The notes under the pieces are model-generated. The model saw only the letters and a list, made by a program, of their open reading frames with translations. It was not told the origin of the DNA and made no database searches. Made by a program: the position numbers and the translations under genes. 64,000 nucleotides of DNA from an uncultured Bacteroidales bacterium (lineage in GTDB: Bacteria > Bacteroidota > Bacteroidia > Bacteroidales > FEN-979): positions 1-64,000 of the forward strand of contig CAIMWF010000056.1 in the NCBI GenBank assembly GCA_903845055.1, read 5' to 3'. Every line of letters starts with the position of its first letter. Position 1 is the first letter of the stretch. Positions 14,165 through 20,448 of the stretch are shown here, piece by piece.

Positions 14165-14178
14165 TTGATATATCTCAA
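14165..14178 (+). promoter_or_regulatory. Crp/Fnr-type box upstream of the regulator gene
   Basis: TTGATATATCTCAA is a perfect TTGA-N6-TCAA palindrome, close to the Fnr consensus TTGAT-N4-ATCAA. Its centre is about 60 bases upstream of the -7 element at 14231. It suggests that the Crp/Fnr protein regulates its own gene. Confidence 0.6.
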
Positions 14179-14278: not shown

Positions 14279-14974
14279 ATGGTAAATAAATTGCAACATG
14301 CTTCCAATTGCGCCGATTGCAACTGCAAAGTTTCCATATTTAAAAACTTAAGCCCGCTCGAACTGGCTCTGATCAACAGCAGCCGTTTCCAGGTCAGCTA
14401 CAAGGCCGGTGAAATAATTTTCAAGCAGGGCACGCCTTCACCCTATTTCGTCTGCGTGACCTCCGGGCTTGCCAAGATATACATTGAAGGTTATGGTAAA
14501 AACCTTATCCTAGCGCTTATCAAACCCGTCGACTATATCTTCGGCCCGGGGATCTACGTGGACAACCGCCACTACTATTCAGCCTCGGCCGTTGAGGATT
14601 GCCAGGCCTGCCTGGTAGATGTTGCCATATTTAAAAAGCTGATCCGCGAAAACCCGGATTTTGCCGAGGAGTTCATCAAGCGCGTCTCACTGCAGTCGAT
14701 CTTCAATTTCGACCAGGTGATCAGCCTTACCCAGAAACAGATGCACGGAAGGATCGCCGACGTCATCTTTTACCTTTCCGATAAAATTTACTGCCAGAAC
14801 CCCTTCGAACTGACCATCTCGCGACAGGACCTTGCCGACCTTTCAGGCATGTCGAAGGAGAGTGCCATCCGGATCCTGAAGGAATTCAAGGAGGAGGGAA
14901 TCCTGACGTTATCGGGCAATACCCTTGAGGTGCTCAACCCGAAACAACTGCGCCAGATCAGCGAAACGGGCTGA
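14279..14974 (+). CDS. Crp/Fnr family transcriptional regulator
   Basis: A 231-residue regulator. Residues ~20-125 form a cyclic-nucleotide-binding-type beta-roll (YKAGEIIFKQGTPSPYFVCVTSG). A long dimerisation helix follows, then a winged helix with ISRQDLADLSGMSKESAIRI (~residues 182-202). An N-terminal Cys cluster (Cys11, Cys14, Cys16) together with Cys108/Cys111 recalls the [4Fe-4S] ligands of oxygen-sensing Fnr, although the spacing differs from the E. coli C20-x2-C23-x5-C29 pattern. It lies directly upstream of the cytochrome cluster. Fnr-like palindromes precede both its own gene and the first cytochrome gene, so it is the probable anaerobic activator of that cluster. Confidence 0.9.
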   Translation: MVNKLQHASNCADCNCKVSIFKNLSPLELALINSSRFQVSYKAGEIIFKQGTPSPYFVCVTSGLAKIYIEGYGKNLILALIKPVDYIFGPGIYVDNRHYYSASAVEDCQACLVDVAIFKKLIRENPDFAEEFIKRVSLQSIFNFDQVISLTQKQMHGRIADVIFYLSDKIYCQNPFELTISRQDLADLSGMSKESAIRILKEFKEEGILTLSGNTLEVLNPKQLRQISETG

Positions 14975-15066
14975 TAATGGATTAACAATCAGCCCGTTTA
15001 TTTCCCGTATTTCTTATATGTAAGTTCCCGGGGATCCCCATTTCAATGTATTTATTTATATAAGGA

Positions 15067-15080
15067 TTGATATATGTCAA
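15067..15080 (+). promoter_or_regulatory. Crp/Fnr-type box 1 upstream of cytochrome cluster
   Basis: TTGATATATGTCAA, a perfect TTGA-N6-TCAA palindrome differing from the box at 14165 in only two positions. It sits 21 bases, two helical turns, upstream of the second box. Confidence 0.6.
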
Positions 15081-15087
15081 TGAAGCA

Positions 15088-15101
15088 TTGAGATATATCA
15101 G
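15088..15101 (+). promoter_or_regulatory. Crp/Fnr-type box 2 upstream of cytochrome cluster
   Basis: TTGAGATATATCAG keeps TTGA-N6-TCA with one mismatch. Its centre is ~62 bases upstream of the -7 element at 15157, nearly the same distance as at the regulator's own promoter (~60), consistent with class I activation. Confidence 0.5.
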
Positions 15102-15156
15102 TTATAATATTAACAAATCTCACCAACTTATTAACAGCTGGGTTGATAATCTTCGA

Positions 15157-15164
15157 TATTTTTG
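15157..15164 (+). promoter_or_regulatory. -7 element of the cytochrome cluster promoter
   Basis: TATTTTTG fits TAnnTTTG. No good TTG lies 18-22 bases upstream, as expected for an activator-dependent promoter. The start site would be near 15171, giving a ~60-base leader. Confidence 0.45.
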
Positions 15165-15233
15165 TTCCCGAAACAATTTGCACAAGTTGTCTGCTGCGAC
15201 ACAAACGTATTTATTAACAAAAACTGTAAGAAT

Positions 15234-16589
15234 ATGAAAAATTTACACAAATTATTTTTTGCTGCCGGGCTGATCGCGGTTGCATGCATCATGGTAACAT
15301 CCTGCACCAAGACCGGACCCCAGGGCGCCCAGGGTATCGCAGGGACAAACGGAACAAACGGAACAAACGGTAAGGATGCAAATGAAACCTGCAAGCTGTG
15401 CCATGCAAAGGAAGTTGTTGACAGTGTAGCTGTTCAGTTCGAACTTGCCAAGCATTCATGGGGTGTTGTAGCGTTTGAAGAAGCCGGCGTTGTTGGCTGC
15501 GATCCCTGCCATACCGACAAGGGTTTTGTTTATGTTTGTAAAAACAATGTTCCCTCCACCTTTACCTTTACCGGTGGAAAATGGAACAATGATTATTCAA
15601 CGGTTCTCTCCGATGCGATCGGTGCCATCACCTGTTTCACCTGCCACAGCAGTCTGCACACGACTTATGGCTATGCCGACATCACAGCCCTCACCACTGT
15701 CGCTCCTGTTAAGATGACCATGTGGGGTGGTGCCAAAACCATCGATCTTCAACAGAATGGCGGCAAAAGCAATTTATGCGTGAAATGCCACCAGCCCCGT
15801 CCGTTGAACTGCGGCAACGATCCCGCCGGCAGGTTGCTCAACTACGACTCCGTAAAGAATTTTCCGAAAATCGTCATGTGGGACAGTGCTGCCGGAGCAA
15901 AGAATATTTACCTGAAACCCTCCTACCGCATGCACGTACACTATGGTGCGGTCGGTGCTGTATATGCTGGGATGGGCGCCATCGAATTCCCCGGCGACCT
16001 GGTTTATTCCAACTCCAAGCACACCACCGTTGCTTCCTGCCCCGACTGCCACATGGCCCCGATGACCGGGATGGCCGGCGGACACGCCTTCAACGTAAGG
16101 AATGCAAAAGAATCTGCCTTATCGTCAGGCACGACCTGGAATTTCAATGGCTGTAACGTGACCAGCTGCCACGGATCGGATCCCATCACTTTAACCGCAG
16201 CCAAATGGGTGAACACCCGCACTGAAATCAAGGGTCTGCTCGATGCCCTGGCCACCAAGATCAACGCCTGCGGCGGCGGACATGACATCCTCCACAAAGA
16301 CGCATCATCCACCAACCTGTGGTGGGGTGTTTCCACCAACAACTACGACGGTTATCTTGACATCTATACCCCGGGTACCAACGATGCCGGTTACTGGAGA
16401 GATCCTTACAGCACCAATGCTACCAACATGACCAAACCCAAATTCCCGAAATTACTGAACGTCCAGACGGGTGCGCTCATCAATTTCCAGTTCTGCTTAA
16501 GGGAATACAGTTTAGGTATTCACAATACTTCCTATGTAAGGGCCCTGCTGAAGAACAGCGTTCAGGCCCTGAATGCAGCAGGCCTGTAA
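15234..16589 (+). CDS. Multiheme c-type cytochrome lipoprotein with collagen-like stalk
   Basis: 451 residues from the ATG at 15234, chosen because it begins a lipoprotein signal (hydrophobic core to lipobox VTSC, acylated Cys24); a longer in-frame start at 15162 would bury it. Residues 28-46 are Gly-x-y triplets (GPQGAQGIAGTNGTNGTNG), a short collagen-like spacer. Five CxxCH heme motifs follow (CKLCH 53, CDPCH 89, CFTCH 134, CVKCH 182, CPDCH 269) plus one CNVTSCH (307), a CX4CH variant that can also carry heme. It is predicted to be anchored in the outer membrane as the terminal or surface electron carrier of the cluster. The C-terminal ~135 residues have no heme motif. I know no named homologue. 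Confidence 0.88.
   Translation: MKNLHKLFFAAGLIAVACIMVTSCTKTGPQGAQGIAGTNGTNGTNGKDANETCKLCHAKEVVDSVAVQFELAKHSWGVVAFEEAGVVGCDPCHTDKGFVYVCKNNVPSTFTFTGGKWNNDYSTVLSDAIGAITCFTCHSSLHTTYGYADITALTTVAPVKMTMWGGAKTIDLQQNGGKSNLCVKCHQPRPLNCGNDPAGRLLNYDSVKNFPKIVMWDSAAGAKNIYLKPSYRMHVHYGAVGAVYAGMGAIEFPGDLVYSNSKHTTVASCPDCHMAPMTGMAGGHAFNVRNAKESALSSGTTWNFNGCNVTSCHGSDPITLTAAKWVNTRTEIKGLLDALATKINACGGGHDILHKDASSTNLWWGVSTNNYDGYLDIYTPGTNDAGYWRDPYSTNATNMTKPKFPKLLNVQTGALINFQFCLREYSLGIHNTSYVRALLKNSVQALNAAGL
15342..15368 (+). repeat. 9-base tandem repeat encoding Gly-Thr-Asn
   Basis: GGGACAAAC, GGAACAAAC, GGAACAAAC in frame within the collagen-like part of the multiheme lipoprotein gene; the first copy has one mismatch. 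Copy-number changes would lengthen or shorten the stalk without a frameshift. Confidence 0.7.
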
Positions 16590-16610
16590 TTCAGTCACAA
16601 ATGCTAAAAA

Positions 16611-16640
16611 AAGGCTTCAGCGAACCTGAAGCCTTTTTTT
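16611..16640 (+). terminator. Rho-independent terminator after the multiheme lipoprotein gene
   Basis: GGCTTCAG (16613-16620), loop CGAAC, CTGAAGCC (16626-16633), then seven T. A perfect 8-bp stem, A-rich on the left side, so it may work on both strands. It separates the first cytochrome gene from the rest of the cluster. Confidence 0.9.
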
Positions 16641-16717
16641 CAAATATTGAAACATGCGGATCATTATTCACCGAAATTCATTTAACAACGGATAATTAAT
16701 CGTTCAACCCAAAAAAA

Positions 16718-17113
16718 ATGATTATGCAAAGCAAAAAGTTGAAAAAACTGCTTACGATCGTTCTCGTGCTTTTTATCTTCTCATCCTGTACGAAGGATGT
16801 GATCGTAACAGATCCACCTGCCATTAAAGCTCCCGTGGTTCCCGGCCAGATCAGTTTTTCCGGCAGGATCCAGCCGATCTTCACGGCAAACTGCGTCAAA
16901 TGTCATAAAGTTGGTGGTGTTGCACCGGTACTGGAAGAAGGAAAGTCATACCAGGCATTGATGAACACCCCTGGTCTCATCAACACTGCCGCCCCGGCAA
17001 GCAGTATCTTGTACCAGGAAATGGCTCCCGGTGGGTCCATGAGTTCGTTCTGCACCGTGGCAGATTCTGATTCAACCTACAAATGGATCAGCCAGGGCGC
17101 GAAAAACAATTAA
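16718..17113 (+). CDS. Monoheme cytochrome c-like lipoprotein
   Basis: A 131-residue protein with a lipoprotein signal (lipobox FSSC, acylated Cys24) and a single heme site CVKCH (59-63) preceded by RIQPIFTANC, the typical start of small secreted heme domains. Downstream KSYQALMNTPGLIN and ILYQEMAPGGSM resemble the heme-containing 'planctomycete cytochrome c-like' type, with Met residues available as axial ligands. An alternative start two codons on (16724) would not change the mature protein. It is probably an outer-membrane partner of the multiheme lipoprotein and the barrel encoded next. Confidence 0.82.
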   Translation: MIMQSKKLKKLLTIVLVLFIFSSCTKDVIVTDPPAIKAPVVPGQISFSGRIQPIFTANCVKCHKVGGVAPVLEEGKSYQALMNTPGLINTAAPASSILYQEMAPGGSMSSFCTVADSDSTYKWISQGAKNN

Positions 17114-17166
17114 CTTTTTACACACACTAATATTTATTCGAAATGCATACTTATACTTCAGGTAAT

Positions 17167-18222
17167 ATGAAACGATTATTTATGGGTTTCATCTTTTTGA
17201 CATGCGGACTGGGTGCGGTTATTGCACAGGATACGATCCCGCAGCCGGAACAGAAACCCCTGGTCAAAGCACCCTTCGAAAGCGGTTATTTCATCGCCGA
17301 CCATACCGTTGCCCTCCCTCCGGCAAAAACCCTTGAACTCGTCATCCAGCATGATTTCGGCACGATCCAGCAGCACTGGTCCGACATGTTCGGCATCTGG
17401 GGCGGTTCGAACATCAGGATAGGTTTCAGCTACACCCTTAACAAGAACCTGCAGATCGGGTTCGGAACCTCCAAACTTAAACTGCAGCAGGATTTCAGCC
17501 TTAAATATGTGGTCGTGCGCCAGCGCAAGGGTGGCTTCCCCCTCACCATTTCGGTCGACGGAAATTTTGCCATTGATTGCAGGAACAAATCATTCCTTGG
17601 CAACAATAAGCTGGAATCAAGCCTCGATTACAATTCCCTGGTGAAGGATTCAACCTTCAGGTCGAACATCAAAAACCAGATCGTAACGAACGACACCGCC
17701 CACGGTTTGAATTACATCACCTACAACCAGGCTGCCGGGCTGAAAGGCGCCAATAAAACGGACCTTCAGACACTTTTTGACCAAACCTTCAAGTCCAGTT
17801 ACCGGTTTTCCTATTTTGCAGAGATCCTCATAGCGCACAGGTTCTGCAAGGAATTCTCAGCACAGGTGGGCGTTTCATTCGTACATTACAACCTCGTTGA
17901 TTTTGCCGAAATGCAGAACAACCATGTAAACGGGATGAAAAACGACAACATCAGCATTTCAGGCATCGGGCGTCTCAAACTGACACCCCAGACCTCCATT
18001 ATCGCCAGCTATTCCCAGCCCCTGATGACCTACCTGAATACCGCCCCGTGGCCGAATGCGGGACTTGGCGTTGAAATTTCAACCAGCACCCATACATTCC
18101 AGATCTTCCTTTCAGCAGCCAACGGGCTGGTTCCGCAGGAAACGATCATGTATAACCACAACAACCCTTATAACGGGGCCATTCTTCTTGGATTCAATAT
18201 AACCCGGTTATGGACCTTTTAA
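17167..18222 (+). CDS. DUF5777-like outer-membrane beta-barrel protein
   Basis: 351 residues from the ATG at 17167, which opens a signal peptide (MKRLFMGFIFLTCGLGAVIAQ); the frame also has an ATG at 17143 eight codons upstream. The mature part begins KAPFESGYFIADHTVALPPAKTLEL and continues with alternating amphipathic strands ending in an aromatic C-terminal residue (RLWTF), typical of barrels inserted by BamA. It resembles the DUF5777 family of Bacteroidota, often found with cytochromes. In context it is the best candidate for the pore of a porin-cytochrome conduit that lets electrons cross the outer membrane. That role is inference. Confidence 0.78.
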   Translation: MKRLFMGFIFLTCGLGAVIAQDTIPQPEQKPLVKAPFESGYFIADHTVALPPAKTLELVIQHDFGTIQQHWSDMFGIWGGSNIRIGFSYTLNKNLQIGFGTSKLKLQQDFSLKYVVVRQRKGGFPLTISVDGNFAIDCRNKSFLGNNKLESSLDYNSLVKDSTFRSNIKNQIVTNDTAHGLNYITYNQAAGLKGANKTDLQTLFDQTFKSSYRFSYFAEILIAHRFCKEFSAQVGVSFVHYNLVDFAEMQNNHVNGMKNDNISISGIGRLKLTPQTSIIASYSQPLMTYLNTAPWPNAGLGVEISTSTHTFQIFLSAANGLVPQETIMYNHNNPYNGAILLGFNITRLWTF

Positions 18223-18264
18223 TCCACAGCCAAAATAAATTGTCAAACCAAATAAACTAAAAAC

Positions 18265-18681
18265 ATGAAAACAAGTCAAAAAATCGCAACATTATTGGTT
18301 ACTGCAGTTATTGCTGTGGTTTTCCTTTTTGGAAACACCGTCAATGCACAGGGTGCAAAAGCAAAACCCTGGCCGGTGGGTGACAAGGACAAAACAATGA
18401 AAGCCCCCGCAAAAGCCGACCCCGCTGCCGGTAAAGAACTGTGGGCAAAACATTGCAAATCATGCCACGGAAGCAAAGGTCTCGGTGACGGTCCCAAAGC
18501 TGCTACCCTGAAAACCAACCCGGGCGACTTCTCATCTGCTGCCTTCCAGGGTTCAACCGATGGCGAACTTTTCTTCCGTACCAGCAAGGGACGCGACGAA
18601 ATGCCCGCTTACGAAAAGAAAATTCCTGAAGCCAACGATCGCTGGGCACTGGTTGCCTTCATGCGTACCCTGAAAAAATAA
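18265..18681 (+). CDS. Periplasmic class I cytochrome c (monoheme)
   Basis: A 138-residue protein with a signal peptide ending near NAQG (~residue 29), no lipobox, and one heme site CKSCHG (64-68). Met113 in GRDEMPAYE is the likely distal ligand, and the C-terminal helix WALVAFMRTL completes a cytochrome c fold. It is predicted to be a soluble periplasmic shuttle between the inner-membrane cytochromes encoded downstream and the outer-membrane components encoded upstream. It is followed by a strong terminator. Confidence 0.92.
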   Translation: MKTSQKIATLLVTAVIAVVFLFGNTVNAQGAKAKPWPVGDKDKTMKAPAKADPAAGKELWAKHCKSCHGSKGLGDGPKAATLKTNPGDFSSAAFQGSTDGELFFRTSKGRDEMPAYEKKIPEANDRWALVAFMRTLKK

Positions 18682-18709
18682 TTGCATGATGATTCTGCAA
18701 TGATTTACA

Positions 18710-18749
18710 AAAAGGGTGTTAACGGGAGTTTCCTGTTAACACCCTTTTC
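18710..18749 (+). terminator. Rho-independent terminator after the monoheme cytochrome gene
   Basis: GGGTGTTAAC (18714-18723) pairs with GTTAACACCC (18735-18744), with A's before and TTTT after. A 10-bp perfect stem lying inside the cytochrome cluster. Confidence 0.88.
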
Positions 18750-18792
18750 ATTTTTCACATTCCCGGGTTAATTATTCACTACAACTATTACG

Positions 18793-19821
18793 ATGGTTTA
18801 CAAGACAAATATACGACCGGCATGGGTGGTCCTGGTGCTGCTGATGATCTTCACCCTTGCCTTCACCCTGGTTAAAACTTCCGACAACAATGCTCCCGAA
18901 CAAAAGGTCCAGACCGAAAAGATCATCCCCACGAAGATCGACCTTTCAAAATTTAAAAATGCGGAGCAGAATGAAAAGTGCCTCAAATGCCACGGGCAGA
19001 CCAAGTACTCCTATGAAAATGCAGAATCCAAACAAACCGTTACCAAGCGGATGTATGCCGAACTGGTGCTGAACCGCGATGTATTCTACGTTTCAAACCA
19101 CAAGGGGTTCAAATGCACCGATTGTCATTCCGAAGATTATGAAACTTTTCCCCATGCGGGAAACCTCCGCATGGAGACAAAGGCGAACTGCATTGACTGC
19201 CATGGCGGAGATGAAAAATATGCAAAATTCAAATTCGAACAGATCGAATCGGAATTCCAGGCCAGTGTTCATTCTGAAAAACACAGCAAAGACTTTACGT
19301 GCTGGATGTGCCACAACGCCCATACCTATAAAATCAATGCACGGACCAACGAAAACCTGAAACAAACAATCACCTACGACAACCTCATCTGCCTGCATTG
19401 CCACGGCGACGTCAACAATTACCAGCTGCTCACCGACAAGGAGAAACCCAACCTGCTCCAGAAACATGAATGGCTCCCGAACCAGGCCTCCCATTTCACC
19501 AATGTCAGGTGCATCGAATGCCATGCAAAGAATGAGGATACCCTCGTGGTGGCCCACCATATCATGTCGAAGAAAAACGCCGTGAGGAAATGCGAGGCAT
19601 GCCATTCAAAAAATTCAATCCTCTATGCCTCCCTCTATAAGCAACAGGTAAAGGAAAACATCCAGAAAGAGGGCATTTTCAAAGGTCTTTTAATGGCAGA
19701 TGCCACCACCATCGGCCCCGACAAAAGCAACACCCTGAACATCATCAGCATCCTGATATTCGCACTTACCATGCTGGCCATCGCAATCCATGCCGCTTTT
19801 CGCATTAAAAAATCTTCCTGA
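18793..19821 (+). CDS. Membrane-anchored heptaheme c-type cytochrome
   Basis: 342 residues. There is an N-terminal hydrophobic segment (~10-27) and a C-terminal membrane helix (~313-336, IISILIFALTMLAIAIHAAF) followed by RIKKSS, so the heme domain lies in the periplasm. Seven CxxCH motifs start at residues 63, 108, 133, 170, 200, 240 and 267 (CLKCH, CTDCH, CIDCH, CWMCH, CLHCH, CIECH, CEACH), and many other His residues are available as axial ligands. It is broadly of the cytochrome c3/NrfH-NapC superclass but I cannot name a subfamily. Only three bases separate it from the cytochrome b gene, so the two probably form a quinol-oxidising complex. Confidence 0.88.
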   Translation: MVYKTNIRPAWVVLVLLMIFTLAFTLVKTSDNNAPEQKVQTEKIIPTKIDLSKFKNAEQNEKCLKCHGQTKYSYENAESKQTVTKRMYAELVLNRDVFYVSNHKGFKCTDCHSEDYETFPHAGNLRMETKANCIDCHGGDEKYAKFKFEQIESEFQASVHSEKHSKDFTCWMCHNAHTYKINARTNENLKQTITYDNLICLHCHGDVNNYQLLTDKEKPNLLQKHEWLPNQASHFTNVRCIECHAKNEDTLVVAHHIMSKKNAVRKCEACHSKNSILYASLYKQQVKENIQKEGIFKGLLMADATTIGPDKSNTLNIISILIFALTMLAIAIHAAFRIKKSS

Positions 19822-19824
19822 CCT

Positions 19825-20448
19825 ATGAACCACCAACCCGAACGACTCTATCTGTATCCTGTCTGGATCCGGATCTGGCATATGACCAATGCCATCCTTT
19901 GTCTTACCCTGATCATCACCGGTCTGAGCATCCAGTTTGCCACACCCGGAACCGTGATTAAATTCAAAACGGCCGTCTCGGTGCACAATATTGCCGGGAT
20001 CCTCCTATCCCTCAGTTACGCGGCTTTCTTTATCGGCAACCTGCTAACCACAAACGGAGCATACTATGTAATCCCTGTGAAAGGATTCCTGGACAGGCTC
20101 CTGAAGCAATTCCGCTATTACACGGTGGGACTGTTCAAAAAGGAAGATGCACCCTTCCCGGTCAGTGAGGAGAACAAATTCAACCCCCTGCAGCAATCGA
20201 CCTACGTCGTGCTGATGTATGCCATGGTTCCCTTTGTGATCCTGTCAGGCTGGGGACTTTTGTATCCCGAAATTACCGTGAAAAGTTTTGTCGGATACAG
20301 TGGACTTGACCTCACCGACCTGTTTCACATCATCGCCGGGTTCACCATCAGCATCATCATGTGCGTGCACATCTATTTCTGTACGATCGGTAAAAGCCCC
20401 TGGAGCAATTTTAAAAGCATGCTCAACGGTTATCATGAATCCCATTGA
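19825..20448 (+). CDS. Cytochrome b561-like membrane subunit (Ni-hydrogenase / thiosulfate reductase cytochrome b type)
   Basis: 207 residues with four predicted membrane helices (about 15-38, 52-72, 124-148, 163-187). His20 (WIRIWH), His54 (VSVH), His167 (DLFH) and His182 (CVH) are well placed as b-heme ligands. Subunits of this type take electrons from menaquinol and pass them to a periplasmic c-type partner, here the heptaheme protein encoded three bases upstream. Possible alternatives are a quinone-reducing module running the other way (electron uptake) or an orphan thiosulfate/polysulfide reductase anchor. No molybdopterin subunit is present in the cluster. Confidence 0.88.
   Translation: MNHQPERLYLYPVWIRIWHMTNAILCLTLIITGLSIQFATPGTVIKFKTAVSVHNIAGILLSLSYAAFFIGNLLTTNGAYYVIPVKGFLDRLLKQFRYYTVGLFKKEDAPFPVSEENKFNPLQQSTYVVLMYAMVPFVILSGWGLLYPEITVKSFVGYSGLDLTDLFHIIAGFTISIIMCVHIYFCTIGKSPWSNFKSMLNGYHESH

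Follow-up and report, generated by a model that had tools for sequence, protein, structure and literature searches.

A conserved gene set of uncultured Bacteroidales for a probable electron path from quinol to the outer membrane, with a hexaheme lipoprotein related to NrfA and OcwA

Results and discussion

A set of seven genes, a Crp/Fnr-family regulator followed by six genes named here in their order HEX, MLIP, BAR, MC, HEPT and CYB, was analysed in an uncultured Bacteroidales bacterium. It occupies positions 14279-20448 (+ strand) of the window, the 64,000-nt stretch C56:1-64000 (contig CAIMWF010000056.1) of a 3.95 Mb draft genome. The gene set is well supported as a conserved, probably anaerobic electron path from quinol to the outer membrane, and extracellular electron transfer by it is plausible. 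The fuller reading, an anaerobically induced respiratory path that ends at an OcwA-like hexaheme protein of the outer membrane and delivers electrons to an extracellular acceptor, appears to us evenly balanced between true and false.

A preliminary description of this DNA, made from the letters and an open reading frame (ORF) list, had proposed a regulator and six electron-transfer genes with at least 14 CxxCH motifs. The coordinates and strand of the seven ORFs and their Pfam assignments bore this out, and exactly 14 CxxCH motifs and one CX4CH motif were counted in the translations (HEX to CYB: five CxxCH plus the CX4CH, one, none, one, seven and none). No other listed ORF of at least 60 aa in the 64 kb window carried more than one CxxCH. 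The Pfam families were Crp/Fnr for the regulator, cytochrome c7 and c552 for HEX, DUF5777 for BAR, cytochrome cbb3-type for MC, cytochrome c3/c7 for HEPT and cytochrome b561 for CYB. A literature search found no paper on this gene set. The features are as follows.

14165..14178, + strand, FNR-type box TTGATATATCTCAA upstream of the regulator gene (exact motif search and relatives)
14279..14974, + strand, Crp/Fnr-family regulator (HTH_Crp_2 1.4e-14, cNMP_binding 1.8e-14)
15067..15080, + strand, FNR-type box TTGATATATGTCAA upstream of the HEX gene (motif search and relatives)
15088..15101, - strand, second FNR-type box with one mismatch, starting 21 bp past the first (motif search)
15234..16589, + strand, HEX, hexaheme lipoprotein, predicted member of the NrfA/OcwA superfamily (heme conservation, profile, model)
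15315..15377, + strand, collagen-like stalk of HEX, seven G-x-x triplets past the lipidated Cys (sequence)
16610..16636, + strand, terminator-like hairpin and T-run 3' of HEX (own script, 11-bp stem)
16718..17113, + strand, MLIP, monoheme c lipoprotein (one CxxCH)
17143..18222, + strand, BAR, DUF5777 outer-membrane barrel, 12 predicted strands (PF19089 1e-63, AlphaFold2 model)
18265..18681, + strand, MC, monoheme cytochrome c, presumed periplasmic carrier (Cytochrome_CBB3 1.3e-11)
18793..19821, + strand, HEPT, heptaheme cytochrome c with a C-terminal membrane helix (seven CxxCH; Cytochrom_c3_2 4.9e-14, Paired_CXXCH_1 1e-6)
19825..20448, + strand, CYB, cytochrome b quinol subunit, presumably with two b hemes (Ni_hydr_CYTB 8.2e-23)

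The hexaheme lipoprotein resembles NrfA and OcwA

The heme count of HEX, given earlier as five to six, is six, and all six hemes were conserved in 40/40 aligned sequences; the sixth motif is CX4CH in the window and CxxCH in many relatives. Twelve histidines were also conserved (His142 in 39/40; one histidine within a short segment ahead of heme 5 in 40/40), which would be enough for six bis-His hemes. In profile searches, HEX matched NrfA (2.8e-13), the structure 6qvm (1.8e-12) and OcwA (2.7e-12). Additionally, PF02335 scored just over its cut-off (27.2 versus 24.1 bits), and HEX was the sole PF02335 match in the genome. Mainly on the profile matches, HEX is predicted to belong to the NrfA/OcwA superfamily. 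Its size (681 residues or codons) leads us to take 6qvm for OmhA of Carboxydothermus ferrireducens, which is described as a proposed surface terminal reductase. OcwA of Thermincola potens is described as a cell-surface terminal reductase (PMC6703420).

HEX shares profile similarity with OcwA and 6qvm, and its model matches the NrfA-like half of OcwA. In contrast to OcwA and OmhA, it has six rather than nine or eleven hemes, a lipid anchor with a collagen-like stalk, and a Gram-negative host. Between two and 12 G-x-x triplets (median 7) follow the lipidated Cys in the 40 aligned sequences. With NrfA, HEX shares the fold and the last four hemes, but it differs in an extra N-terminal heme and in being a lipoprotein. 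Moreover, its second heme, which aligns with the CxxCK heme of D. vulgaris NrfA, is CxxCH in 40/40, and the CHVEY stretch of NrfA is replaced by CHQ-x-R (Q in 40/40, R in 38/40). HEX was therefore rejected as NrfA proper, CxxCK being present in none of the 40 aligned sequences. CxxCH does occur in some true NrfA in place of CxxCK.

The conserved histidine before heme 5 aligns with a histidine of NrfA that we take to be an active-site residue. OcwA is described as keeping open heme sites although its histidines would be enough to close all of them (PMC6703420). For these two reasons an open heme is possible in HEX as well.

The HEX versions of relatives fall into interchangeable types, with about 27-36% versus 52-84% identity to the HEX of the window. 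A tandem pair of unlike hexaheme paralogues was seen within one locus in three cases (L085, L095 and L107).

A quinol-oxidising module at the inner membrane

HEPT (23 sequences) combines its seven CxxCH motifs with seven further invariant histidines and with His333, which lies in the last membrane helix. CYB has four invariant histidines (His19, His54, His168 and His182; 19 sequences), as for two b hemes, and follows HEPT in 88 of 90 cases. The profile of the cytochrome b found no match among solved structures. The pair was likened by description to CbcBA of Geobacter sulfurreducens (GSU0593-0594), which likewise consists of a membrane-bound PF09699 heptaheme protein beside a PF01292 cytochrome b. 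CbcA and CbcB reportedly form part of a menaquinol:ferricytochrome c oxidoreductase as its subunits (PMC7726332), and CbcBA is described as active at potentials of about -0.2 V and lower (PMC12307469, PMC9129911). By analogy with this make-up, HEPT and CYB may form a menaquinol-oxidising module of the inner membrane. Unlike CbcBA, the Bacteroidales pair is often followed by iron-sulphur (FeS) and NrfD genes and adjoins an outer-membrane module. The inner-membrane quinol module and the periplasmic monoheme carrier of the preliminary description are supported.

The likeness to the quinol-oxidising CbcBA and ImcH types argues against an inward path, in which Fe(II), a mineral or a partner cell would feed electrons into HEX and on to quinone. 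The FNR-type boxes, which suit an anaerobic path to an acceptor, point the same way. All components are reversible carriers and sequence cannot tell the direction, and a cluster of the genome that resembles, by eye, a haem-copper oxidase could take such electrons; even so, we judge an inward path quite unlikely.

The barrel is narrow and pairs with a monoheme lipoprotein

BAR matched DUF5777 (PF19089) with 215.4 bits against a gathering score of 23.1 (E 1e-63); its true start is possibly the Met at 17167. The confident AlphaFold2 model (pLDDT 85.7, pTM 0.75) is an integral outer-membrane beta-barrel of 12 transmembrane strands. In VIA the top matches were FapF (Z 18.1; root-mean-square deviation (rmsd) 4.8, 211 aligned), KdgM (17.6; 2.1, 167) and NalP (17.5; 4.1, 204), followed by NanC and a designed 12-stranded barrel. 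The BAR profile gave no match to solved structures. The PF19089 match, together with lipoboxes found by eye in HEX and MLIP, both of which carry heme motifs, supports the outer-membrane barrel and, more tentatively, the outer-membrane lipoproteins proposed earlier.

The preliminary description had read these parts as a porin-cytochrome conduit whose components differ from Mtr and Pcc. The components do differ, BAR belonging to the DUF5777 family and HEX bearing a collagen-like stalk. The mechanism was not supported. Geobacter conduits are defined in PMC6148476 by a periplasmic multiheme cytochrome, a barrel and a redox lipoprotein. The window shares with the Mtr, Pcc and Ext systems an outer-membrane barrel with predicted redox lipoproteins, adjacent to cytochromes and conserved, and as described for Geobacter conduits, the inner-membrane partner varies and the surface lipoprotein is replaced between relatives (PMC6148476). 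However, BAR models with 12 strands, compared with 18 (ExtB) and 21 (ExtE) predicted transmembrane domains (PMC6148476), and so it is probably too narrow to sheathe a multiheme protein, as estimated from its size; a narrow barrel was the outcome named beforehand as speaking against a conduit. Furthermore, the gene set encodes no free periplasmic multiheme protein, MC being monoheme and HEPT membrane-anchored, and the tight partner of BAR is a monoheme protein. A classical conduit, with a multiheme protein threaded through BAR and carrying electrons straight across the outer membrane, was therefore rejected as very unlikely, the 12-stranded model largely refuting it. MtrB-like proteins were absent from the 50 matches listed in either structural search with BAR, which alone excludes nothing. 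A heme site inside BAR formed by the invariant His70 and His317 was also considered and dropped, because strand parity worked out by hand places both outward and at opposite ends.

MLIP scored 19.8 bits against a Pfam cytochrome, under the 27-bit cut-off. Among 98 distinct MLIP sequences the heme motif was CXXCH in 73, CX4CH in 18, CXCH in six and CX3CH in one. MLIP lies directly upstream of BAR for 89 of 97 distinct barrels (four others at a contig edge, four with another gene). The two neighbours of BAR are about equally near, with median gaps of 36 bases for MC and 27.5 for MLIP. In the genus set, which comprised the 16 loci that carry the complete set of seven (contig-split or gene-lacking loci excluded; L098 and L102 nearly identical), the MLIP and BAR distances correlated at 0.83 (Mantel p 0.0001). 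The values were -0.05 to 0.14 for MLIP and the other five genes, 0 to 0.26 for BAR and the other five (the higher ones, with MC, HEPT and CYB, at p 0.004 to 0.012), and 0.63 to 0.86 among the remaining genes. The partial values of the genus set were partly unstable (HEX-MLIP +0.53, HEX-BAR -0.56), and across all 38 loci the signal was much weaker (partial MLIP-BAR 0.33, BAR-MC 0.34). MLIP appears to be the firmest partner of BAR: the pair swaps together, whereas MC does not, and the two proteins presumably touch.

DUF5777 was found in 60 of 148 Bacteroidota genomes. Of 49 stretches inspected, which covered 46 distinct places and were the top-scoring ones plus some weaker ones, 45 had a monoheme lipoprotein of the MLIP kind and/or YceI within four ORFs of DUF5777, mostly with no quinol oxidiser in view; L236, L242, L268 and L272 had neither within that distance. 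The barrel family and a similar monoheme lipoprotein are common to these clusters and the window, but the window locus has no YceI and adds the quinol-oxidising module and HEX. The same genome holds a second DUF5777 gene, with a monoheme lipoprotein, a small protein (an OB-fold by eye) and YceI (C154:54794-57155, that is, L011:9795-12156), in a cluster resembling the common Bacteroidota arrangement.

This distribution, the second copy and the presence of the polypeptide exporter FapF among the top fold matches would suit a general envelope unit of BAR and MLIP, acting in lipid or quinone handling with YceI or in lipoprotein display, and merely recruited beside the cytochromes with no electrons going outward. 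We regard this as unlikely, since the pair stays beside MC, HEPT and CYB, and in L113, L261, L262, L274 and L275 it stands beside MC, FeS or NrfD genes (following MLIP-BAR in the last four); the pair thus follows quinol oxidisers. An ethylbenzene-dehydrogenase-like lipoprotein stands beside MLIP, in the position of HEX, in L113, L262 and L275.

The gene set is conserved in related genomes

Among 120 genomes searched, BAR had a match in 64 and HEX in 52 (1e-10), and 60 stretches were taken from these matches. The order regulator-HEX-MLIP-BAR-MC-HEPT-CYB was found in most stretches of the family, and variants of it recurred in several further families of Bacteroidales. The preliminary description had proposed looking for this gene order in other Bacteroidota, and it does recur in uncultured Bacteroidales.

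Because these stretches had been picked by BAR or HEX, a second set was chosen by HEPT alone, with presence counted anywhere in a stretch, some contigs being short; the two sets overlap in genomes. In the best 80 of 461 loci, CYB was present in 78, BAR in 77, MLIP in 71, MC in 66, the Crp/Fnr gene in 61 and HEX in 60. Further genes were FeS (53), NrfD (50), an immunoglobulin-like (Ig-like) protein (47), an ImcH-like NapC/NirT heptaheme protein (21) and a multiheme-cytochrome b fusion type (8). By their titles, all entries were metagenome-assembled genomes: 78 Bacteroidales, Bacteroidetes or kin, one Draconibacterium orientale and one alphaproteobacterium, the last taken to be a mislabel. Their isolate names point largely to lakes (nine to Lac Pavin), and also to fens and groundwater.

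Downstream of CYB, and in contrast to the window locus, many relatives encode a multi-cluster ferredoxin, the membrane protein NrfD, and an Ig-like protein that has a membrane helix. In L199, L204, L208, L216 and L227, a protein of the multiheme-cytochrome b fusion type with 19 CxxCH precedes a HEX-like protein with four hemes.

FNR-type boxes precede the regulator and HEX

The exact sequence TTGATATATNTCAA occurred at two places in the whole genome, both at the HEX locus. In relatives, TTGA-N6-TCAA lay no more than 300 bp upstream of the regulator gene in 39/50 and of HEX in 37/56, in each case versus 0.55 expected from shuffles; where the two genes are divergent, identical boxes were scored for both. 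Upstream of seven other genes the same box was found only 0 to 4 times. A box pair with 21-bp spacing like that of the window was also present in several genus members. The Crp/Fnr control proposed earlier is supported.

FNR is defined by an N-terminal Cys cluster with a distant fourth Cys, and its sites are TTGAT-N4-ATCAA. Among 50 regulators, Cys11 and Cys14 were conserved in 49 each, Cys111 in 50 and Cys16 in 33, a spacing that we take to be unlike that of E. coli FNR. Cys11, Cys14 and Cys111 are candidate iron-sulphur ligands of an FNR-like sensor, and the gene set is probably oxygen-regulated, as the boxes and cysteines suggest.

The wider box TTGAYNNNNRTCAA showed no clear excess in the genome (11 places versus 7 for a backward control). 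Eight of the 11 places lie within an ORF of at least 70 aa, and one (L142) sits between two minus-strand ORFs that are possibly spurious. The two clearly intergenic places are the HEX locus and the nuo (complex I) operon on C64, where the box stands upstream at C64:1131-1144 (L007); the regulator may therefore also control NADH dehydrogenase. The preliminary description had seen no terminal reductase with a molybdenum or siroheme site, and no reductase gene was found behind an FNR box elsewhere in the genome by this exact-motif search, which would overlook weaker sites and other promoters.

The seven genes may not form one simple operon, because a hairpin with a T-run sits after HEX. With our own script, such a structure was found in 29/54 HEX-to-MLIP gaps of relatives and in none of the MLIP-to-BAR (0/90), BAR-to-MC (0/60) and HEPT-to-CYB (0/87) gaps. 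A terminator scanner omitted the hairpin at 16610 and listed an 18-pair stem at 18710-18748, in the MC-HEPT gap; its total of 7 was no more than in shuffles (mean 8.7).

The proposed path and its end point

At low oxygen, the FNR-type regulator would switch on its own gene and HEX. CYB and HEPT, whose make-up is that of CbcBA, would oxidise menaquinol, and MC may ferry the electrons over the periplasm. At the outer membrane, electrons would reach the MLIP-BAR module, in which a genetic pairing suggests contact, and the stalked HEX. In the least certain step, HEX would pass them to an outside acceptor, for example Fe(III), humics or a shuttle. The membrane might be crossed by transport of the lipoproteins themselves to the surface, with BAR and MLIP docking them. 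The most specific version is a distinct Gram-negative route of extracellular respiration in Bacteroidales, with HEX as a stalked surface reductase derived from NrfA/OcwA, and the 12-stranded DUF5777 barrel with MLIP as a minimal relay that has no multiheme inside the barrel; it is possible but less likely than not.

Electron export to minerals has been detailed mainly for Proteobacteria and Desulfobacterota. If these uncultured Bacteroidales of lakes and fens do respire acceptors outside the cell, they would add a lineage to those active in the anoxic cycling of iron and humics. With this locus it can be tested whether electrons need a barrel filled with a multiheme protein to cross the outer membrane. 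For the widespread DUF5777 family, the locus also points to a specific partner, the monoheme lipoprotein.

The claim of an extracellular acceptor stands in part. It is supported by the kinship of HEX with the surface reductase OcwA, by the stalk and by the habitats suggested by the isolate names of relatives, and it is opposed by the missing export signal and by the NrfA kinship, which permits a soluble acceptor. A series of observations weighs against an extracellular end point. The Bacteroidetes lipoprotein export signal (LES) is described as C-X-K-(D/E)2 (PMC5080379), and neither HEX (C-T-K-T) nor MLIP (C-T-K-D-V) of the window matches it. Of the aligned HEX sequences, 24/40 start with C-T-K-E-G, a lone K-E, and MLIP carries a lone K-D; in Capnocytophaga, a reporter was reported to be exposed on 16% of cells with a lone K-E and on 30% with a lone K-D (PMC5080379). 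The surface location of HEX is thus a prediction and unproved, and none of the components could span the outer membrane in the manner of Mtr.

Furthermore, the AlphaFold2 model of HEX is modest (pLDDT 64.5, pTM 0.73). OcwA and NrfA ranked first in Foldseek, with a best E of only 0.02. In VIA, residues 279-525 of OcwA (Z 12.6; rmsd 4.0, 229 aligned) tied with NrfA (Z 12.0; rmsd 4.7, 257 aligned), well ahead of the first unrelated match (Z 2.4), although the notes to VIA caution that, for helical bundles, matches with Z under roughly 13 can be trivial. For these reasons the kinship of HEX with OcwA and NrfA rests mainly on the profile.

Nor is HEX tied to BAR: it was unseen in 20/80 of the HEPT-selected loci and occurs without BAR in L121, L123, L131, L132 and L134, which speaks against a fixed HEX-BAR complex. 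BAR, in turn, is not specific to electron export, because DUF5777 is widespread near MLIP or YceI, mostly with no quinol oxidiser in view. The six MLIPs with the nonstandard C-X-C-H motif (6/98; L105, L106 and L108-L111) belong to one genus.

Since HEX shares the fold of NrfA, a small soluble acceptor is possible. HEX would then belong to a periplasmic branch, attached to the outer membrane from inside, and the acceptor (an oxide of nitrogen or sulphur, a chelated metal or a quinone shuttle) would enter through the 12-stranded BAR, whose best structural matches are 12-stranded solute or polypeptide pores. We consider this possible but doubtful. An NrfA-like HEX that is the only PF02335 protein of the genome and has no described export signal would suit it, as would the slow nitrite reduction reported for OcwA itself (PMC6703420), whereas CxxCH in place of CxxCK and CHQ-x-R in place of CHVEY speak against it. 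The histidines that would allow six bis-His hemes in HEX do so too, though OcwA has open hemes despite enough histidines.

Other redox loci of the genome

On C62, an NrfD module is accompanied by a paralogous Crp/Fnr gene and a monoheme cytochrome gene. Another NrfD module, on C48, stands beside genes resembling, by eye, a caa3-type oxidase, and C48 also carries an ImcH-like NapC/NirT heptaheme protein. Besides the gene set of the window, the genome has two multiheme loci, which suits the proposed path. At C40:29770-34980 (L287:6771-11981), a FAD/4Fe-4S oxidoreductase gene precedes genes for two large cytochromes, one of 538 aa with 20 CxxCH and one of 652 aa with 24 CxxCH and one longer motif. 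The next gene encodes a 548-aa protein that ends in F and whose C-terminal part is outer-membrane-barrel-like by eye. No link was made between these multiheme proteins and the gene set of the window; by size, the C40 locus is a separate and better candidate for a wide conduit.

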